DNA of 32,645 nucleotides, from NCBI GenBank assembly GCA_017440925.1, contig JAFSAP010000028.1, positions 1-32,645 on the forward strand. The letters are read 5' to 3'. The translations under genes and the position numbers were made by a program. A model generated the notes under the pieces. That model saw only the letters and a list, made by a program, of their open reading frames with translations, had not been told where the DNA came from and did not search any database. Source of the stretch: Oscillospiraceae bacterium (GTDB taxonomy: Bacteria; Bacillota; Clostridia; Oscillospirales; Oscillospiraceae). Each line of letters begins with the position of its first letter. Position 1 is the first letter of the stretch. Of this stretch, positions 2,983-31,289 are shown in pieces.

Positions 2983-4071
2983 ATGCAGATTATACAAGAC
3001 CGCCGGGCACTGCACCGGATCCCCGAACTGGACAAACTCCTGCCGGAGACACTATCCTATCTGAAAACAGCACTTTCGGGGCTGAACTGCCGGGTCTTTT
3101 CCCCTATGGATGGGGCGCTCTGCGCTTTCTTTGACTTTGGCGCGAAACGGTCACTGGCCTTCCGGGCAGATATGGATGCCCTGCCCATGGCAGAGCAGAA
3201 CGAAACCGAATATACCTCCCGGCATCCCGGCATCATGCATGCCTGCGGACATGACGGCCACATGGCCATTTTGCTGGAGCTGGCACGGCGGCTGGATAAA
3301 AAACGCAGCCTGCCTCACAACATCCTGCTGGTATTTCAGCCTGCGGAGGAAACCACCGGCGGTGCAAAGGATCTGTGCGAAACCGGAATCTTCCGGGAAT
3401 ACAACGTCCGGGCCATCTTCGGCCTGCACCTGTGGCCGGGACTGCCGAAAGGCTCCGTTGCCAGCCGGAAACTGGAACTGATGGCCCGCTCCTGCGAGGT
3501 CAATGTGGATATCTACGGCAAGTCCGCCCACATCGCCAAAGCTGCCGAGGGCATCGACGCTCTGGCTGCCGGAGCTGAATTCTACCGGCGGGCCATGGAC
3601 ATGGAAGCTGCCCTGCCCGGCCATATTTTCCGGCTGCTGAAGTTCGGAAAATTTGAAAGCGGCACCGTCCGCAATGCCTTATCCGCCCACACCCACATGG
3701 AGGGCAGTCTCCGGGCTTTCCAGGATGGGGTTTTTGATGGCCTGTGCCAGGGGTTGACCGGTATCGCCCGGGATGTGGAGCAGCTTTTTGGCTGCACCGT
3801 GGCCGTTTCCCTGAATGCTGGATATCCTGCTGTCATGAATCCGGAGGAGCTCTATGACCAGGTGAAGCACTGCGCAGACTTTCTGGAGCTGGAATCCCCC
3901 TTCATGACCGCCGAGGATTTTGCTTTCTATCAGAGGGCGCTTCCCGGCATGTTCTTCTTCCTGGGCACCGGGGACAGCCCGGCCCTGCACACCAGCAATT
4001 TTGACTTCGATGAAACTATTCTGGAGAAAGGCGCTGACTTCTTCGAAACGTTGGCAACTGATTTTGTATGA
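2983..4071 (+). CDS. dapL: M20-family N-acetyldiaminopimelate deacetylase
   Basis: A 362-aa metallo-aminoacylase of the M20D group, expected to release acetate from N-acetyl-LL-diaminopimelate. Start at 2983 is set by GGAGG (2970-2974) 8 bases upstream; longer in-frame extensions run through the palindromic repeat and promoter and are not real. Metal and catalytic motifs: RADMDALPM (61-69), HACGHDGH with C88 and H90, the Glu pair E122/E123 in QPAEE, H149 in GLHLWP, the lid-domain SAH near 180, and a C-terminal HTSNFDFDE carrying the last His ligand. The family also includes other N-acyl-amino-acid hydrolases, so substrate rests on context: dapH diverges and an aminotransferase follows with an ATGA overlap. 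Confidence 0.9.
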   Translation: MQIIQDRRALHRIPELDKLLPETLSYLKTALSGLNCRVFSPMDGALCAFFDFGAKRSLAFRADMDALPMAEQNETEYTSRHPGIMHACGHDGHMAILLELARRLDKKRSLPHNILLVFQPAEETTGGAKDLCETGIFREYNVRAIFGLHLWPGLPKGSVASRKLELMARSCEVNVDIYGKSAHIAKAAEGIDALAAGAEFYRRAMDMEAALPGHIFRLLKFGKFESGTVRNALSAHTHMEGSLRAFQDGVFDGLCQGLTGIARDVEQLFGCTVAVSLNAGYPAVMNPEELYDQVKHCADFLELESPFMTAEDFAFYQRALPGMFFFLGTGDSPALHTSNFDFDETILEKGADFFETLATDFV

Positions 4072-15463: not shown

Positions 15464-16237
15464 TTAAATACTTGGTTTTCTTGCTGTGATGGTGGAGGAC
15501 ATGATGAATTCTCCTACCGACAGGCCGCTGCCCCACTTTTCCTCGTATTCCTTTGAGACAGGCTTCTCCTTTATGCAGACTTCCGCAAAGCCTGCTGCCC
15601 GGATGAGCCGTTCCAGATCTTCGACCGAAGACGCACCGCTCACTCAGCAGGAATGCATGTTGGGATCATTTTTCATTTCCTCCGGGATCTGCTTCATAAT
15701 GACGATATCGCAGATGGAGATCCGTCCGCCGGGCTTCAGCACCCGGAAAATCTCCCGGTAGACCCGGCTCTTGTTGGGGGACAGGTTGATGACGCAGTTG
15801 GAAATACACACATCAAAGGAATTGTCTGCCGCAGGCAGATTTTCAATTTCTCCCAACCGGAATTCCACGTTCCGGATCCGGTTTTCTTTGGCGATCCGGC
15901 GGGAAGTGGAAAGCATTTCCGGTGTCATATCCACACCCACAGCCCTGCCCCGGCGGCCTACCGCAACACCTGCCAGAAAGGTATCCAGCCCTGCGCCGCT
16001 GCCCAGGTCGATCACCATTTCCCCGGGTTTCAGGTCAGCCGCCCGAAGGGGATTGCCGCAGCCGAGGCCCAGATTGGCCTCCCCCGGAACAGAGGACAGC
16101 TCCTCCGGCGTATAGCCCACAGAGGCAGACATATCCACCGATCCGGTATCGCCGGTGAGGATGGAATCCTCCGGGTGCAGCAGGATCTGGCGGTAATCTG
16201 ACCGCACCTGGTCATGAATATCCTGGTGTTGGTTCAT
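15464..16237 (-). CDS. arsM: ArsM-type arsenite methyltransferase with in-frame UGA, candidate selenoprotein
   Basis: A SAM-dependent methyltransferase of the As(III) family. The conserved frame is 257 codons if UGA at 15644-15646 is read as selenocysteine (residue 198); read as a stop it gives 197 aa. Marks: GYTPEELSSVPGEANLGLGC-GNP (41-62, C60), SAM loop DLGSGAGLD (77-85), C144/C148, and NMHSC197-U198-VSGA, where ArsM proteins carry their catalytic arsenic-binding Cys (GCVxGA/ECISGA). After the UGA the same frame continues VEDLERLIRAAGF...KEKPVSKEYEEKWG to TAA at 15464, matching the expected ArsM C-terminal helix and beta hairpin. AAGGAA precedes the ATG. The seen facts are the open frame and motif; Sec decoding is inferred. 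A nonsense mutation is the alternative. Confidence 0.8.
15605..15646 (-). promoter_or_regulatory. Candidate bacterial SECIS element after the arsM UGA
   Basis: Reading leftward from the UGA, 12 bases are followed by the perfect stem TCTTC/GAAGA (15627-15631 with 15618-15622) with tetraloop GGTC (15623-15626). An outer GAGC/GCTC helix (15638-15641 with 15605-15608) encloses it. The first loop G is 17 bases after the UGA. Bacterial SECIS elements, such as E. coli fdhF with 18 bases, need a GGU-type loop at about this distance. Confidence 0.65.
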
Positions 16238-16276
16238 GGTGTTTCCTTTCCAGGGCTCTGGGCCCCATTAAAATTT

Positions 16277-17239
16277 TTATTCTTCCGACACTTCTCTGTG
16301 GGTTCTTTCACTGATGATATATCTGGGGCGGCCCTTGACTTCCAGATAGATCTTGCCGATATATTCTCCCAGCACGCCGATGCCCACCAGCTGTACCCCC
16401 GCCACAAAGCAGATGATGCAGGTCATACTGGCCCAGCCTGCCACCGTCATGCCTCGGATATGCTGAACGATAGACCAGAGCACGCCCAAAAAGCTGATGG
16501 CTGCCACAAAAAAGCCCAGCATGGTGATCATCCGCAGAGGCTTGACGCTGAGGCTCGTGATACCGTCGATGGCAAGGTTCAGCATTTTGGACAGGGGATA
16601 CTTGCTTTCCCCTGCCAACCGTTCCTGCCGGTCATAGTAGACGCTGGTGCTTTTGAAGCCCACCAGCGGAAACATCCCCCGCAGAAACAGGTTGACCTCT
16701 CTAAATTCCGAAAAGGCCTGCAGGGCCTGGCTGGAAACCAGACGGTAGTCCGCATGGTTGTAAACACTTTCCACACCAAAGAAACGCAGCAGCTTATAAA
16801 AACCCTGGGCCGTTGTACGCTTGAAAAAGGTATCCGTTTCCCGGTTTCTTCGGACGCCGTAGACAATATGACAGCCATCGTGCCAGCAGTCCACCATCTC
16901 GTCCATGGCGTTTACATCATCCTGCCCATCGCAGTCAATGGAAATGGTGATGTCGCAGACATCCTTTGCCTCCATGAGGCCGGCCAGCACTGCATTCTGG
17001 TGGCCCCGGTTCCGGCTCTGGCGGATACCCAGAAAATGGGTGTCCTCCGCTGCCAGCCGGGAAATGATCTCCCAGGTTTTGTCCCTGGAGCCGTCGTCCA
17101 CAAACAGAATCCGGCTCTTTTCTGCGATCTTCCCCTCCGCGGCCAACTGCTGCAGCTTGGCAAGAAACTGAGGTGCCGTAATGGGCAGCACTTCTTCCTC
17201 ATTGTAGCAGGGAATGACAATATATAAAACAGGCAGCAT
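16277..17239 (-). CDS. GtrB/DPM1-like family 2 glycosyltransferase with two membrane spans
   Basis: A 320-aa membrane glycosyltransferase, likely moving a sugar from UDP-sugar to undecaprenyl phosphate on the cytosolic face. The GT2 domain has IVIPCYNEEEVLP, LFVDDGSRDKTW, a QSRNRGHQNAV acceptor loop, and the metal motif ISIDCDGQDD (DxD-like), then ADYRLVS. Two C-terminal spans lie near 235-260 and 270-295, followed by GVLGEYIGKIYLEVKGRP, the GtrB tail. Such enzymes feed sugars to flipped lipid carriers for decorating wall polymers. The arsM start is 39 bases downstream, so cotranscription is possible, though the functions are unrelated. Confidence 0.92.
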   Translation of the reverse strand: MLPVLYIVIPCYNEEEVLPITAPQFLAKLQQLAAEGKIAEKSRILFVDDGSRDKTWEIISRLAAEDTHFLGIRQSRNRGHQNAVLAGLMEAKDVCDITISIDCDGQDDVNAMDEMVDCWHDGCHIVYGVRRNRETDTFFKRTTAQGFYKLLRFFGVESVYNHADYRLVSSQALQAFSEFREVNLFLRGMFPLVGFKSTSVYYDRQERLAGESKYPLSKMLNLAIDGITSLSVKPLRMITMLGFFVAAISFLGVLWSIVQHIRGMTVAGWASMTCIICFVAGVQLVGIGVLGEYIGKIYLEVKGRPRYIISERTHREVSEE

Positions 17240-17274
17240 GAATGCCGACCCCTTTCTCTTATGCTTTCGCCTGT

Positions 17275-17303
17275 ATTATACCACAATCTGCCGTCCATTG
17301 TAC
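17275..17303 (-). promoter_or_regulatory. Extended -10 promoter of the glycosyltransferase
   Basis: A perfect TATAAT (17275-17280 on the minus strand) is preceded by TGG. The -35 region (17298-17303) does not match consensus. Confidence 0.5.
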
Positions 17304-17311
17304 ATACCTGG

Positions 17312-17346
17312 CAGAAAAAACAGGAGCGGCAAAACCGCTCCTGTTT
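17312..17346 (-). terminator. Terminator of the ferritin gene
   Basis: A 12-bp perfect stem AAACAGGAGCGG/CCGCTCCTGTTT (17318-17329, 17335-17346) with a TTTTG loop and a T6 tract on the minus strand, 12 bases after the ferritin stop codon. Confidence 0.93.
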
Positions 17347-17358
17347 CATTTTAAACTA

Positions 17359-17868
17359 TTACAGCACCAGAGAGGGGGCCGTATACACCCGGGCAGCGTA
17401 CTCCTGATCCAGCAGGTACAGGCCTCTGGGATCACCGCCGAAGAGCTTGTAGCGGCTGACCATGCTGTCGGCATTTTCCTCTTCTTCCATCTGCTCATCC
17501 ACAAACCAATCCAGGAACTTCATGGTGCGGTAGTCCCGGGCCTGGTGGGCCTCGTGATAGATGTTGTTGATGAGGGCGGTAACGTAGCGCTCATGCTCTG
17601 CAGCAATTTCCAGAGGATCCAGAACGCTGTGGAATTCCTTGTCGGGCTTGCCGATGGCTTCCAGAGTCACCTTCAGACTGTTGATCTGCATGTACTTCAT
17701 AAAGAGCAGGGCGTGGTCCCGCTCCTCCTGGGCCTGGATCATGTAGTAGTTGTAATAGCCGTCCAGATCCAGCTCCTTGTAATAGTTTGCCATATCCAGA
17801 TACAGATAGGCGCTGTAGAATTCCTTGTTGATCTGATCATTTAAGAGCGCTGTAACTTTTTCATTCAT
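17359..17868 (-). CDS. ftnA: Ferritin (bacterial non-heme iron storage)
   Basis: A 169-aa four-helix-bundle ferritin that oxidises and stores iron in the cytosol. The start at 17868 (MNEKVTALLNDQ) is preceded by AAAGGGG; the longer frame would add 22 Pro/Gly residues encoded by an intergenic hairpin. Ferroxidase ligands are visible: INKEFYSAYLYLDMA (helix A Glu), QAQEERDHALLF (ExxH on helix B), HERYVTALINNI, and the DEQMEEEENADSM helix. Length fits prokaryotic Ftn, not the longer bacterioferritin. It is the last gene of the leftward perR-rubrerythrin-flavin reductase cluster and is expected to follow PerR control or its own attenuated readthrough. Confidence 0.95.
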   Translation of the reverse strand: MNEKVTALLNDQINKEFYSAYLYLDMANYYKELDLDGYYNYYMIQAQEERDHALLFMKYMQINSLKVTLEAIGKPDKEFHSVLDPLEIAAEHERYVTALINNIYHEAHQARDYRTMKFLDWFVDEQMEEEENADSMVSRYKLFGGDPRGLYLLDQEYAARVYTAPSLVL

Positions 17869-17893
17869 AACGATACCCCTTTCTTTGGACAAA

Positions 17894-17922
17894 CCGCCGA
17901 TCCCCGGCATGGGGACCGGCGG
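17894..17922 (-). terminator. Hairpin between flavin reductase and ferritin
   Basis: A 12-bp stem with one mismatch (17894-17905 with 17911-17922) and a 5-base loop, followed only by TTTG. It may attenuate or stabilise rather than fully terminate, lowering or separating ferritin expression. Confidence 0.5.
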
Positions 17923-17940
17923 CTGCGCGATCACGATGAT

Positions 17941-18375
17941 TTAGAATTTGGGCTTGATAGCCTTATGATAATGGGCGTAGGTACAGGAGGCATTTCTGCT
18001 GAGCACCTTGCTCTCTGTGACCTCGCCAATAAACATCATGTGGCTGCCCAGGTCTTTCTTATCCACTACCTTGCAGGAGAACATGGCATTGGCGTTTTCC
18101 GTCAGGTAGTAGAGACCGTTGTGGCTGCGCTTGACCGCAGAGAAATTCTCAAACTTATTGACTTCCCGGCCGGTCTGCATGCCGAAATGCTTGATGGTGT
18201 CAAAGGGCACATCTTCCGTCAGCACGCTGACGTTGAACACACCGGTGCGCTCAATCATCTCTTTGGTCAGATTCTCGCTCTGGCAGGAGATGGCGAGGCG
18301 GGTGGGATTGTTCGCCACCTGTACGGCAGTGTTGATGATGCAGCCGTTGTCCTGATCTTCCTTCGCGGTCAGCAC
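17941..18375 (-). CDS. Flavin reductase-like domain protein, missing its start codon (probable +1 frameshift fusion to rubrerythrin)
   Basis: An FMN-binding split-barrel domain of the flavin reductase family, as in high-molecular-weight rubredoxins. The nominal start at 18375 is a GTG without a ribosome site, and it removes the conserved RNLSYGLFVLT opening, whose codons continue upstream to about 18408. That frame stays open to 18462 but has no ATG, GTG or TTG. It contains the linker [20 protein letters not shown] immediately after the rubrerythrin stop. Core motifs: NGCIINTAVQVANNP, NVSVLTEDVP, FGMQTGRE, NAMFSCKVV. It probably passes electrons from NAD(P)H via FMN to rubrerythrin's rubredoxin. 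Either a +1 shift or a 1-base insertion separates it from the upstream gene. Confidence 0.78.
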   Translation of the reverse strand: MLTAKEDQDNGCIINTAVQVANNPTRLAISCQSENLTKEMIERTGVFNVSVLTEDVPFDTIKHFGMQTGREVNKFENFSAVKRSHNGLYYLTENANAMFSCKVVDKKDLGSHMMFIGEVTESKVLSRNASCTYAHYHKAIKPKF

Positions 18376-18433
18376 GAATAAGCCATAGCTTAAGTTCCGT
18401 GTGGCCGCGGGGTCAACCGCAGGTTCTTCCTGC

Positions 18434-19027
18434 TTAGCGAAAGTAGCGCTCCAGCAGACCCTTCAGAGCCTTGCCGTGACGGGCCTCGTCGCGGGCCATC
18501 TCATGGACGGTGTCGTGGATGGCATCCAGGCCGTTCTTCTTGGCGCAGATGGCCAGATCGGTCTTGCCCTGGGTAGCGCCGAATTCGCAGTCAACACGCC
18601 ATGCCAGGTTCTCCTTGGTGGTAGCCTTCATGTTGGGCTCCAGATCCTCGCCCAGCAGTTCTGCAAACTTTGCAGCGTGCTCAGCCTCTTCGTAAGCTGC
18701 CTTCTCCCAGTACAGGCCGATCTCGGGGTAGCCTTCGCGGTGAGCGATGCGGGCCATGCACAGGTACATACCGACTTCGGAGCACTCGCCCTGGAAGTTA
18801 GCCATCAGCTGCTCGAAGATGTACTTCTTGTCAGCCTCGGAGATGTCAGGGTTGTTCTTGACGGTCTTGGCATAGATGCCGTACTCGTGCTCGGCAGCCA
18901 GCTTCATCTCGCCCTTCTGCTCCTCGAACTTGGAAGCAGGAACCTTGCAGACGGGGCAGCGGAAATCAGCAGCCAGCTCTTCGGCGGTATGGACATAACC
19001 ACAAACACTGCAAACAAACTTCTTCAT
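18434..19027 (-). CDS. rbr: Reverse rubrerythrin (N-terminal rubredoxin, C-terminal diiron domain)
   Basis: A 197-aa cytosolic peroxide reductase typical of anaerobes. The start at 19027 is set by GGAGGA 7 bases upstream. The rubredoxin iron site is C6-x2-C9 and C24-x2-C27 in the first 35 residues. The diiron bundle follows with [43 protein letters not shown] (ExxH) and [14 protein letters not shown] (second ExxRH). Having rubredoxin at the N-terminus makes it the reverse type, as in clostridial revRbr/Hsp21-like proteins. Codon use suggests high expression. Its last codons, TAC TTT CGC TAA, would read TAC TTC GCT AAG into the flavin reductase if shifted by +1. perR ends 45 bases upstream. 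Confidence 0.95.
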
Positions 19028-19072
19028 AATAAAATCCTCCAAATAATTTTAATTTCTTTTCTGAATGGGTAT

Positions 19073-19477
19073 TTACGCGGATTGATGCTTTGCCAGGCAT
19101 TCCCGGCAGGTTCCGAAGAACATGAGCTGACAGAAGTCAACCTGTCCTCCGATGTGCTGTGCCGCTTCGCTGCACAGCCGCTGGGGGGCGTCCATCTGGT
19201 GCAGATCCCTGACTGCCGTGCAGCAGTTACAGACAAAATGCACATGGGGCTCGGTGTTGGCGTCAAACCGTTCGATCCCGTGGACAGTTCCAAGGCTTTG
19301 GATCACGCCCTGGTCCTTGAACCGGGAGAGGTTGCGGTACACCGTTGCCAGTGAGATGTCCGGATGCTGGGGCTTCAGCATTTCATGCACCATCTCAGCC
19401 GAGGGGTGCAAATCCGTTTCGCGCAGGCAGGTAAGGATCGCATTGCGCTTGCGGAACTGTTTGTTGCTGTTTTCCAT
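19073..19477 (-). CDS. perR: Fur-family peroxide regulator PerR
   Basis: A 134-aa Fur-superfamily repressor, probably PerR. Start 19477 has AGGAGGT (19482-19488) 4 bases away. The winged helix covers ~10-75 with HPSAEMVHEMLKPQHPDISLATVYRNLSRFKDQGVI (recognition helix near 42-53). The structural zinc site is C83-x2-C86 with C124-x2-C127, and regulatory metal ligands are likely H38, H78, H80 and nearby Asp. Fur proper is not excluded by sequence, but the downstream rubrerythrin, flavin reductase and ferritin are classic PerR targets. A consensus promoter with two palindromes lies upstream, implying autoregulation of the whole leftward cluster. Confidence 0.92.
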   Translation of the reverse strand: MENSNKQFRKRNAILTCLRETDLHPSAEMVHEMLKPQHPDISLATVYRNLSRFKDQGVIQSLGTVHGIERFDANTEPHVHFVCNCCTAVRDLHQMDAPQRLCSEAAQHIGGQVDFCQLMFFGTCRECLAKHQSA

Positions 19478-19511
19478 GGGCACCTCCTGTTCTTATATTT
19501 GCGAATCACTC

Positions 19512-28730: not shown

Positions 28731-29927
28731 TTAAGCTTCCATAACGCGATCAAATTCGACCTTCGCATCATCGAAATTCAGATGCGTATAGGTATTCAGT
28801 GTGACACTGATATCCGAATGCCCCATGATATATTGCAGGGTCTTCGGGCTCATGCCGCTCTTTGCCATATTGGAGCAGAAGGTATGGCGGCATACATGGG
28901 GTGTGATCTTCGGAAGCTGAACTTTATAAATGCTGTTATACTTGTTCAGGATATGCTTGAAATAATGCTCCCAGTGGAGGGCGACCATAGGCATCCCGTT
29001 CTTATCCAGAAAGAGGAACCCGGTATAGCCGTCAATGATTGGCTCCTGCTTCGGCGCGTTTCGATTATCCATGATCCTCCGGAAACAATCCATAACCTGC
29101 TGGCTCATGGGAACATATCGCTCACCGCTCTTGGTTTTTGTATCCTCGATGATATATTCCATGTCCCGCTTTCGCTGTAGCTGGTGATCCACCCGAATCC
29201 GCTTTTTCTTGAAATCAATATCCGCAATGGTCAAGCCACAGAATTCCGAAATCCGCAGCCCCGTATTAAACAGAATATAAATTCCATCGTAATACTTGCG
29301 GTAGCAGTTGTCTTCTTGGATAAATTTCAGGAATGCCCGTTCCTGTGCACGCGTGATGGCTTCTCTGGTCACGCTATCGTTGACAACCACCGTTGCCAGT
29401 TCAAACCCAAAGGGATTTTTGCGGATCAGGTCATCATTGACAGCCATCTCAAAAGCAGGCCGTACAACACCACGGACAGAATGGATCGTGCTGTATCCCC
29501 GGCCATCCTTTTGCAGCTTGATCAGCCATGCTTTGGCATCGGACAATTTAACCTTGTCGATACGCATACTGCCGAAGGCTTCTTTTTTCAGAATGCCCTT
29601 TACAAAATTATAATTGGCTTGGGTGTTGTGTCGGACATTCACCTTAAGCGACAGGTACTTCTCCACCAGCTCCAACACCGTCATGTTGCCGCCGTTAGGG
29701 ACGATTTGATTGAACAGATCCTGCTGGATCTGTTTTTCTTTTTCCCGGAGCGACAGTTCCCGTGCTTTGCCAGCCGGTGCCCTGTCGTTCTTATCCAGTC
29801 TCCAGCTATAAACGAATTTGATTTCGCCGTTCAGGTCTTTGTATTTATAAGCATATCTTCCGTCTTGACGCTGGCTCTCTCCGTTACGTAAAATGCGGTT
29901 TCGGTTATCCCGCCGCTTTTCACTCAT
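28731..29927 (-). CDS. int: Tn916-type tyrosine recombinase (integrase)
   Basis: A 398-aa site-specific recombinase. Start at 29927 has AGGAG (29935-29939) 7 bases upstream. Residues 1-60 are the Tn916 Int arm-binding domain (RRDNRNRILRNGESQRQDGRYAYKY...). Residues ~80-180 are the SAM-like core-binding domain. The catalytic domain has R225 (NTGLRISEF), K266 region, H344-x-x-R347 (HVCRHTF), H370 (MGHSDIS) and the nucleophile Y380, nearly the same position as in Tn916 Int. It cuts and joins the element's ends. It lies at the end of the element, as in Tn916. Confidence 0.96.
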   Translation of the reverse strand: MSEKRRDNRNRILRNGESQRQDGRYAYKYKDLNGEIKFVYSWRLDKNDRAPAGKARELSLREKEKQIQQDLFNQIVPNGGNMTVLELVEKYLSLKVNVRHNTQANYNFVKGILKKEAFGSMRIDKVKLSDAKAWLIKLQKDGRGYSTIHSVRGVVRPAFEMAVNDDLIRKNPFGFELATVVVNDSVTREAITRAQERAFLKFIQEDNCYRKYYDGIYILFNTGLRISEFCGLTIADIDFKKKRIRVDHQLQRKRDMEYIIEDTKTKSGERYVPMSQQVMDCFRRIMDNRNAPKQEPIIDGYTGFLFLDKNGMPMVALHWEHYFKHILNKYNSIYKVQLPKITPHVCRHTFCSNMAKSGMSPKTLQYIMGHSDISVTLNTYTHLNFDDAKVEFDRVMEA

Positions 29928-29953
29928 AATAACGCTCCTTTCAGTGAAGAGAG

Positions 29954-29988
29954 CTCCGATATGACAAAAAAAGTATATCATATCGGAG
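29954..29988 (-). promoter_or_regulatory. int promoter inside an inverted repeat
   Basis: A perfect 11-bp inverted repeat CTCCGATATGA/TCATATCGGAG (29954-29964, 29978-29988) encloses an extended -10 (TGA TATACT on the minus strand, 29972-29977). Repressor binding here would control int separately from xis. Confidence 0.6.
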
Positions 29989-30038
29989 TTCAATTTACTA
30001 CTTTAACTTTCGGAAATTACCGTTTTCCTATGGCAGAA

Positions 30039-30236
30039 TTACACAGCCGTAGCCAGATCGATGTACTCTTCAAACAGCTTCCGTTTGATCATGGCACGGT
30101 TACCGACCATCAGGATGAAGTCTGCGTCTCCATTTTCATCCACAATCTGCCGCATCTTCTTTTCACCAATGTGGAAGTATTCTGCTGCTTCTCGAATGGT
30201 TAATGTATATTTCTCCCAAATGGGGATTTCTTTCAT
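30039..30236 (-). CDS. xis: Tn916-type excisionase, winged-helix DNA-binding protein
   Basis: A 65-aa protein with a MerR/excisionase-like winged helix: IWEKYTLTIREAAEYFHIGEKKMRQIV (helix-turn-helix at ~11-32) followed by the wing FILMVGNRAMIKRKLFEEYID. The size and pairing with a Tn916-type integrase identify it as Xis, which bends the element ends and drives excision. AGGAGG (30247-30252) is 10 bases from this ATG; a GTG two codons earlier is 4 bases from it and could be used instead. It is read toward int. Confidence 0.9.
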   Translation of the reverse strand: MKEIPIWEKYTLTIREAAEYFHIGEKKMRQIVDENGDADFILMVGNRAMIKRKLFEEYIDLATAV

Positions 30237-30311
30237 AGGCACATATCCTCCTGATATAACATCATCGAAATAATTCGCCGAAAATTTCGGCTAATTTGAC
30301 ATTCATACGTT

Positions 30312-31289
30312 TTAAGCACGGTTTACGGTATCCTTTCGTTCTTTTTGCGACTGGTCATATGTAGCCAGAACATCTGGCGGAATCGTATCCAGGGTCTTCT
30401 GCAAAGCATCCACTATATTTTGCAGGTCATCCAGCTTCTGTACCTTCCGCTCCAATTCCAGCTGACGCAGGACACTGGCTTTACTGCCATCCAGCTCTTT
30501 CTTTACCTTGGAAAGCTCACCGCGCAGCTCCTTAGCGACGCGATTCGCCTTCTTCATTTTTGTCATCAATTCCTCAACACCGGGGATATACTCTTCCAGA
30601 ATGGCTGCGATTTCCGCAGCCTTCTTTTTTGCGTTCAGGGGTGTGAGTTCGGACAACAACTGCACCAATTTTTCTTTCTGACGGGTCAAGTGGGCAGCCT
30701 GCTTAAAGAGCCGGGGCGGGATATGGGTACGCCCAGTTTCACTGGCAGATTCCCCGCGCTCGAAGTCCGGATATTTCTTGACCATGTGCTTCCAGAACTC
30801 GTCCTGCCACTGGGTCAGCTTTTTCTTGTTGCCTATGACCTCCTTGGCACTGAGCCTGTTATCCTCTGTCAGTGGAACGAAGCACAGGTGCATATGGGGT
30901 GTCTTTTCATCCATATGTACCACAGCGGAAAGAAAGGTTTCCGGGTTCTGCTTGTTTGACATGAATTCCATAGCGTAGTCAAAGAAGGCTTTGACTTCAT
31001 CGGGCTTCTTACCCGCGAAAAACTCCGGGCTGGCGGTGATCAGGGCTTCCACCACGGTTACGCTGTCCTTCCGGACACGGCAGCCAGCTTCCTGGATCAT
31101 CCGGTCAGACATCGCCCGGTATCTGCCCTTGGGTGTTACCATGTGGAAGTTATATTTGCTGAGATCGGTATGGATATCCGGATTGCTGGCGTACACCTCC
31201 TTGGTGCGCTCATTGTGGGCCTCGATACGGCTCACTGTGAGGCCTTTGTATTTCTGAAAGCGAAGGATCGCATACTGAGCCTTACTCAT
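30312..31289 (-). CDS. mobV: MobV-family relaxase (Pre/Mob)
   Basis: A 325-aa mobilization protein that nicks its oriT and leads the strand into a recipient using a conjugation machine supplied by another element. GGAGGTGA lies about 7 bases before the ATG. Motif I is near 20-50 (RIEAHNERTK...NPDIHTDLSKYNFHM) and the metal triad motif is H125-x-D-E-x3-P-H132-x-H134 (VVHMDEKTPHMH). Residues ~195-310 form a Lys/Glu-rich coiled coil (KANRVAKELRGELSKVKKELDGS...), as usual after the catalytic part. No coupling protein or type IV secretion gene is seen, so the element is mobilizable rather than self-transmissible within this view. Confidence 0.94.
   Translation of the reverse strand: MSKAQYAILRFQKYKGLTVSRIEAHNERTKEVYASNPDIHTDLSKYNFHMVTPKGRYRAMSDRMIQEAGCRVRKDSVTVVEALITASPEFFAGKKPDEVKAFFDYAMEFMSNKQNPETFLSAVVHMDEKTPHMHLCFVPLTEDNRLSAKEVIGNKKKLTQWQDEFWKHMVKKYPDFERGESASETGRTHIPPRLFKQAAHLTRQKEKLVQLLSELTPLNAKKKAAEIAAILEEYIPGVEELMTKMKKANRVAKELRGELSKVKKELDGSKASVLRQLELERKVQKLDDLQNIVDALQKTLDTIPPDVLATYDQSQKERKDTVNRA

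Follow-up and report, generated by a model that had tools for sequence, protein, structure and literature searches.

The arsM gene and its in-frame UGA codon

The window, which is the whole 32,645-nucleotide stretch that was analysed, contains an arsM coding sequence on the minus strand (15464..16237). Its frame and profile score describe a product of 257 residues with selenocysteine (Sec) at position 198 and a TAA stop. From 16237 down to 15464, the frame has only two stops, the TGA of codon 198 (15646-15644) and the TAA of codon 258. The UGA at 15644..15646 (minus strand) is flanked by Cys197 (codon 15647..15649, minus strand) and by VSGA, and 59 sense codons follow it. A candidate Shine-Dalgarno-like stretch, AAAGGAA, was read from the sequence on the same strand 5' of the ATG (16242..16249).

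The read-through protein scored 295.1 bits against NF008823, the family model of the arsenite methyltransferase ArsM, above the curated cut-off of 263, whereas the product ending at the UGA scored 252.5 bits and fell below it. Thus, the 59 codons past the UGA are in keeping with the rest of the protein, as the preliminary description had stated. An open frame of 59 codons has a probability of about 9% at the local base composition. The openness of the frame is therefore weak evidence in itself, and the case for read-through leans on homology.

We aligned the protein with the 4kw7 ArsM chain, taking residue numbers from the chain coordinates. Sec198 fell on Cys224, Cys148 (codon 15794..15796, minus strand) on Cys174, and Cys60 (codon 16058..16060, minus strand) on Cys72; the two cysteine codons were located by computing their coordinates from the frame. 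Cys72, Cys174 and Cys224 are the arsenic-binding residues of CmArsM, the enzyme of Cyanidioschyzon merolae, and its C174A and C224A variants were inactive on both arsenite and methylarsenite (PMC3877260, in the part covered here). All three arsenic-ligand positions are thus kept in the window protein. The proposal that the UGA lies where ArsM proteins have an arsenic-binding Cys was borne out.

Codon 198 among homologues and selection past the UGA

The codon aligned with position 198 was examined in 119 homologues, made up of 80 loci from named genomes (the best 80 of 569 matches), 5 from the order, 29 from the class and 6 from the genus, less one duplicate (L136, identical with L019). The class search listed 36 matches outside the source genome; the codon count does not cover the seven of these that had no locus, for which the match table contained no internal stop. 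The codon was UGA in 31 homologues and TGC or TGT in 88, although the weakest of the 119 (for example L104 and L131-L133) are distant methyltransferases and may not all be ArsM. Neither another codon at this position nor another internal stop was found in the aligned parts of the 119 sequences; an additional TAA flagged in L113 and L138 proved to be their end stop. UGA was present in all ten top-scoring homologues among the best 80 of the 569 named-genome matches, and in all seven arsM copies of the genus, which came from six genomes including the source genome.

The codons following the UGA are under purifying selection, about as strong as that on the codons before it. In the nine closest of the 31 Sec homologues, which were the ones chosen for this calculation, dN/dS past the UGA was 0.05-0.15 in eight comparisons, the ninth being saturated in dS, and 0.09-0.17 ahead of it in all nine. 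Relatives thus carried only Cys or UGA at residue 198, and the frame did not decay beyond it. Two of the features by which bacterial selenoproteins are recognised were present here, namely homologous sequence on either side of the UGA and homologues with Cys at its position (88 of 119).

These results bear on whether the gene is a Cys-type arsM on its way to becoming a pseudogene, its UGA having arisen by nonsense mutation or through a sequencing error. A one-base change turns TGC or TGT (Cys) into TGA, and the assembly is fragmented (77 contigs) and 68% complete, both of which would suit such an origin. However, 31 of the 119 homologues have UGA at the same codon and no further internal stop where they align, dN/dS is low after the UGA, and the genome holds a full Sec decoding set (described below). 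We rejected this explanation as extremely improbable, since it is contradicted by the UGA common to the relatives and by the low dN/dS.

The Sec decoding system and the distribution of the trait

The preliminary description had made the Sec reading dependent on a decoding system in the same genome, and the set was found to be complete. The tRNA-Sec scored 74.6 bits and has the anticodon TCA, selA and selB are clustered on contig 25, and contig 40 carries selD. With the decoding set complete and the frame intact past the UGA, the reading as a Sec-containing ArsM was supported, and we regard the presence of an in-frame UGA within an intact arsM frame as confirmed.

In-frame UGA codons also occur in the SelD and GrdB genes of this genome, the latter a few kilobases 3' of the tRNA-Sec gene. 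The idea that ArsM is the sole client of the Sec system besides SelD was rejected on account of the UGA in GrdB. PF07355 was found in seven of the nine selB-positive genomes of the genus, and FdhA in one of them (G885), in two pieces with a TGA in each. In locus L140 (10657-19182), a Sulf_transp gene of the YeeE/YedE-like kind precedes selA and selB, after which come the tRNA-Sec gene and genes resembling those of glycine reductase components, GrdB with its UGA among them.

Another way to read codon 198 is that this organism has come to translate UGA as one of the standard amino acids, in which case the codon would be unremarkable. The 26 window open reading frames with printed ends stopped at TAA in 23 cases, TAG in two and TGA in one, and so rare a use of TGA might seem to favour reassignment. 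The deacetylase frame does terminate with TGA at 4071, as had been noted. Homologues have Cys at the site, the in-frame UGAs that were found sit at Sec positions (ArsM, SelD and GrdB), and a tRNA-Sec with anticodon TCA is present. Reassignment was rejected on these three grounds, and its probability is close to nil.

The Sec trait is rare in the genus. Among the 136 genomes sampled, selB was found in nine and arsM in six, and all six lay within the nine (hypergeometric p 1e-8, ignoring shared ancestry). Among genomes from the best 80 of the 569 matches, selB was found in 11 of 11 with the Sec form and 14 of 38 with the Cys form, one of these 14 matches lying below the family cut-off. This search covered 49 genomes of the 80 loci; L041 and 30 others were left out, and those 30 were all Cys forms. 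The distribution of arsM was patchy, with matches in 6 of 394 genomes of the order and 32 of 391 of the class, including the source genome. All counts for the order, class and genus come from sampled genomes, and related genomes within these counts are not independent.

The balance between termination and Sec insertion at a UGA depends on selenium as a general property of UGA decoding. The UGA might thus serve mainly as a selenium-dependent switch, with termination at residue 197 when selenium is scarce and a full-length Sec enzyme when it is plentiful. The rarity of the Sec trait in the genus would be in keeping with this. However, no sequence feature was found that favours regulation over plain Sec insertion, and the truncated product would lack the residue that CmArsM needs for activity. 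We therefore consider a primarily regulatory role unlikely, and plain insertion of Sec at codon 198 remains our preferred reading.

The SECIS-like hairpin

Past the UGA, a SECIS-like upper hairpin with a 6-bp stem was found at 15617..15632 (minus strand) and examined by folding, by the bSECIS rules and by synonymous draws. Together with its lower stem, the predicted stem-loop spans 15599..15647 (minus strand). The preliminary description had placed a hairpin with a GGUC loop 17 bases from the UGA. This held for the loop (15626-15623), which starts after 17 nt, but not for the stem, which starts after 11 nt.

The hairpin was the predicted fold of stretches of 53 and 52 nt, while a stretch of 29 nt folded otherwise. 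The suggested folding check thus recovered the structure in two of three stretches, but the energies were unremarkable against shuffled sequences (z 0.03, -1.17 and 0.46). The hairpin also fits the generic bSECIS rules given in section 5 of PMC13188914, the section used here. These rules were satisfied by 26 of 32 Sec forms and 34 of 88 Cys forms, by 2040 of 6513 control codons in Sec-form genes (31%), and by 99 of 214 other codons of the window arsM. Because the controls pass too often, neither the folding energy nor the generic rule was used as proof.

A synonymous-draw test was more discriminating. Codons were redrawn within each gene in 1000 draws, and the feature scored was a 4-nt loop at +17 closed by 4 bp or more. 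With the window counted in, 25 of the 32 Sec forms had this hairpin, whereas the draws averaged 6.2 and never exceeded 13. All 25 share a GASSV context, and the stem was missing in the seven Sec forms without GASSV (L095, L112, L113 and L120-L123). The window gene taken alone was not significant (p 0.176), and the Cys forms also exceeded their own draws (15 of 88, where the draws averaged 6.6). Among carriers of GASSV, the stem was present in 25 of 25 Sec forms and 4 of 8 Cys forms (Fisher p 0.0017, the sequences being related and so not independent). The SECIS-like hairpin is conserved across the clade beyond synonymous expectation, with an unremarkable folding energy.

Genomic neighbourhood

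On one side of the window arsM is a same-strand run (16277-19483, minus strand) with genes for a GT2 glycosyltransferase, a ferritin, a flavin reductase, a rubrerythrin and a Fur-family protein; on the other side is a hexapeptide-repeat protein gene. No ars gene adjoins arsM in the window. Ten neighbour genes, picked by eye, were compared with Pfam. Window neighbour genes had matches in 5 of 17 Sec-form loci, and in four of the 17 the arsM copy lies near a rubrerythrin (L019 and L100), ferritin (L134) or flavin reductase gene (L019 and L137). The company of rubrerythrin, ferritin and flavin reductase genes may reflect a shared stress regulon. At the right end of the window, the translations of minus-strand frames at 28731-31289 resemble an integrase and a relaxase or mobilisation protein, and this might be a mobile element.

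These surroundings raise the possibility that the enzyme, a Sec methyltransferase with an ArsM fold, acts in reality on another metalloid or a thiol compound instead of arsenite. The window gene sits among the genes listed above and not among ars genes, and the neighbours of L019 are rubrerythrins, a flavin reductase and a DUF819 protein. Against such a substrate stand the three conserved arsenic-ligand positions and the neighbours of other Sec-form relatives. An ArsR-family gene lies upstream of arsM in L024, L025, L028 and L139, in L021 genes for ArsR and an ArsP permease accompany a DUF2703-ArsM fusion, and L107 combines ArsR with a transporter of the SBF family, to which ACR3 belongs. Two arsM copies on Paraclostridium plasmids, annotated full-length, both contain the UGA and lie behind ArsR and a metallophosphoesterase, with ACR3 on one of the two. 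A substrate other than arsenite appears distinctly unlikely on this evidence, and arsenite methylation is the activity we assign to the family in what follows.

In Faecalicatena contorta (L021, 2502-4741), the DUF2703-ArsM fusion is itself a Sec form and stands behind the ArsP permease, with the ArsR-family gene further upstream. A congener (G892) has two UGA-containing arsM copies (L135 and L139), one directly behind an ArsR-family gene. The ars-linked and plasmid-borne copies fit horizontal spread of Sec-form arsM among Sec-competent anaerobes. Phage records gave nine distant matches, at 26-39% identity and each over less than 80% of the query.

An additional cysteine ahead of Sec

In a quick tree calculated with no bootstraps, the Sec forms consisted of a group of 31 from clostridial genomes, the window included, and the Pelotomaculum sequence L095, so that Cys and Sec were exchanged twice. 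The window protein and 25 of the 31 Sec homologues (CU in 13, CGU in 12) have a Cys in one of the two positions preceding the site, compared with 11 of 88 Cys homologues. With only two Cys/Sec changes on the tree, this association is not statistically established, and we present the additional Cys of most Sec forms as a lead from sequence comparison. It goes unmentioned in those parts of the Sec-ArsM literature covered here.

One speculative role is that, in clostridial Sec-ArsM, the Cys-Sec or Cys-Gly-Sec pair forms a selenenyl-sulfide, by which the enzyme would reduce its pentavalent methylarsenic intermediate and return to its starting state in a manner not open to Cys-type ArsM. We rate this as unlikely.

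Relation to known enzymes

Sec-containing arsenite methyltransferases are already in print. In the portions of these sources covered here, the 2026 review PMC13188914 places the enzyme in the 'Experimentally verified' block of its Table 1 with NF008823 and the motif UxxG, giving WP_011987699.1 as representative and NF008823/PRK11873 as model and citing Fomenko 2007; PMC9312934 lists it as well. Eight sequences were counted in PMC2398784, and a 2016 survey reported 41 Sec-ArsM proteins in 39 organisms, all within bacteria (PMC5029168, likewise in part). The window ArsM is therefore a member of a known family, and what is new is this member, its distribution, and the additional Cys that closely precedes Sec in most Sec forms.

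The window protein resembles the verified NF008823/PRK11873 enzyme in scoring above the cut-off and in having the UxxG motif (UVSG) at Sec, a likeness that refers to the family model and motif and not to the WP_011987699.1 sequence itself. It comes from a different organism than WP_011987699.1, and has CU where the other main clostridial Sec branch has CGU. With the Cys-type CmArsM (4kw7 and 4fr0) it shares the methyltransferase domain and counterparts of Cys72 and Cys174, but it has Sec for Cys224, an additional adjoining Cys, and 257 residues against 377-383 in the PDB chains. The fused double-Sec families NF041536 (ArsM-DUF2284), NF041537 (ArsM-AhpD) and NF047649, described as selenoproteins in the covered part of PMC13188914, have a homologous methyltransferase domain. 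However, the window protein matched these models in their N-terminal part only and far below their cut-offs (156.2 of 575, 166.8 of 510 and 156.9 of 460 bits, respectively).

Proposed function and significance

Taken together, the window gene almost certainly encodes a Sec-containing arsenite S-adenosylmethionine methyltransferase, its activity being predicted from sequence. SelB and tRNA-Sec would decode UGA-198 as Sec, aided by the SECIS hairpin just downstream. By alignment, Sec198 would replace the arsenic-binding Cys224 of CmArsM and act with Cys148 and Cys60, the counterparts of Cys174 and Cys72. Its selenolate could help bind As(III) or methylarsenite, with S-adenosylmethionine as the presumed methyl donor, and a selenenyl-sulfide between Cys197 and Sec may help to reset the site. 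It is plausible, as had been suggested, that Sec would surpass Cys as nucleophile or ligand towards As(III), a candidate advantage of the window ArsM.

Sec-ArsM as a general phenomenon has been described already. The window gene adds a predicted Sec-dependent ArsM in a genus where the Sec trait is rare and where no arsM was found outside the genomes that have it. The Cys-Sec pair as an internal reductant would be the more interesting point, if true. If the enzyme works as proposed, selenium supply would be linked to arsenic methylation in these bacteria.
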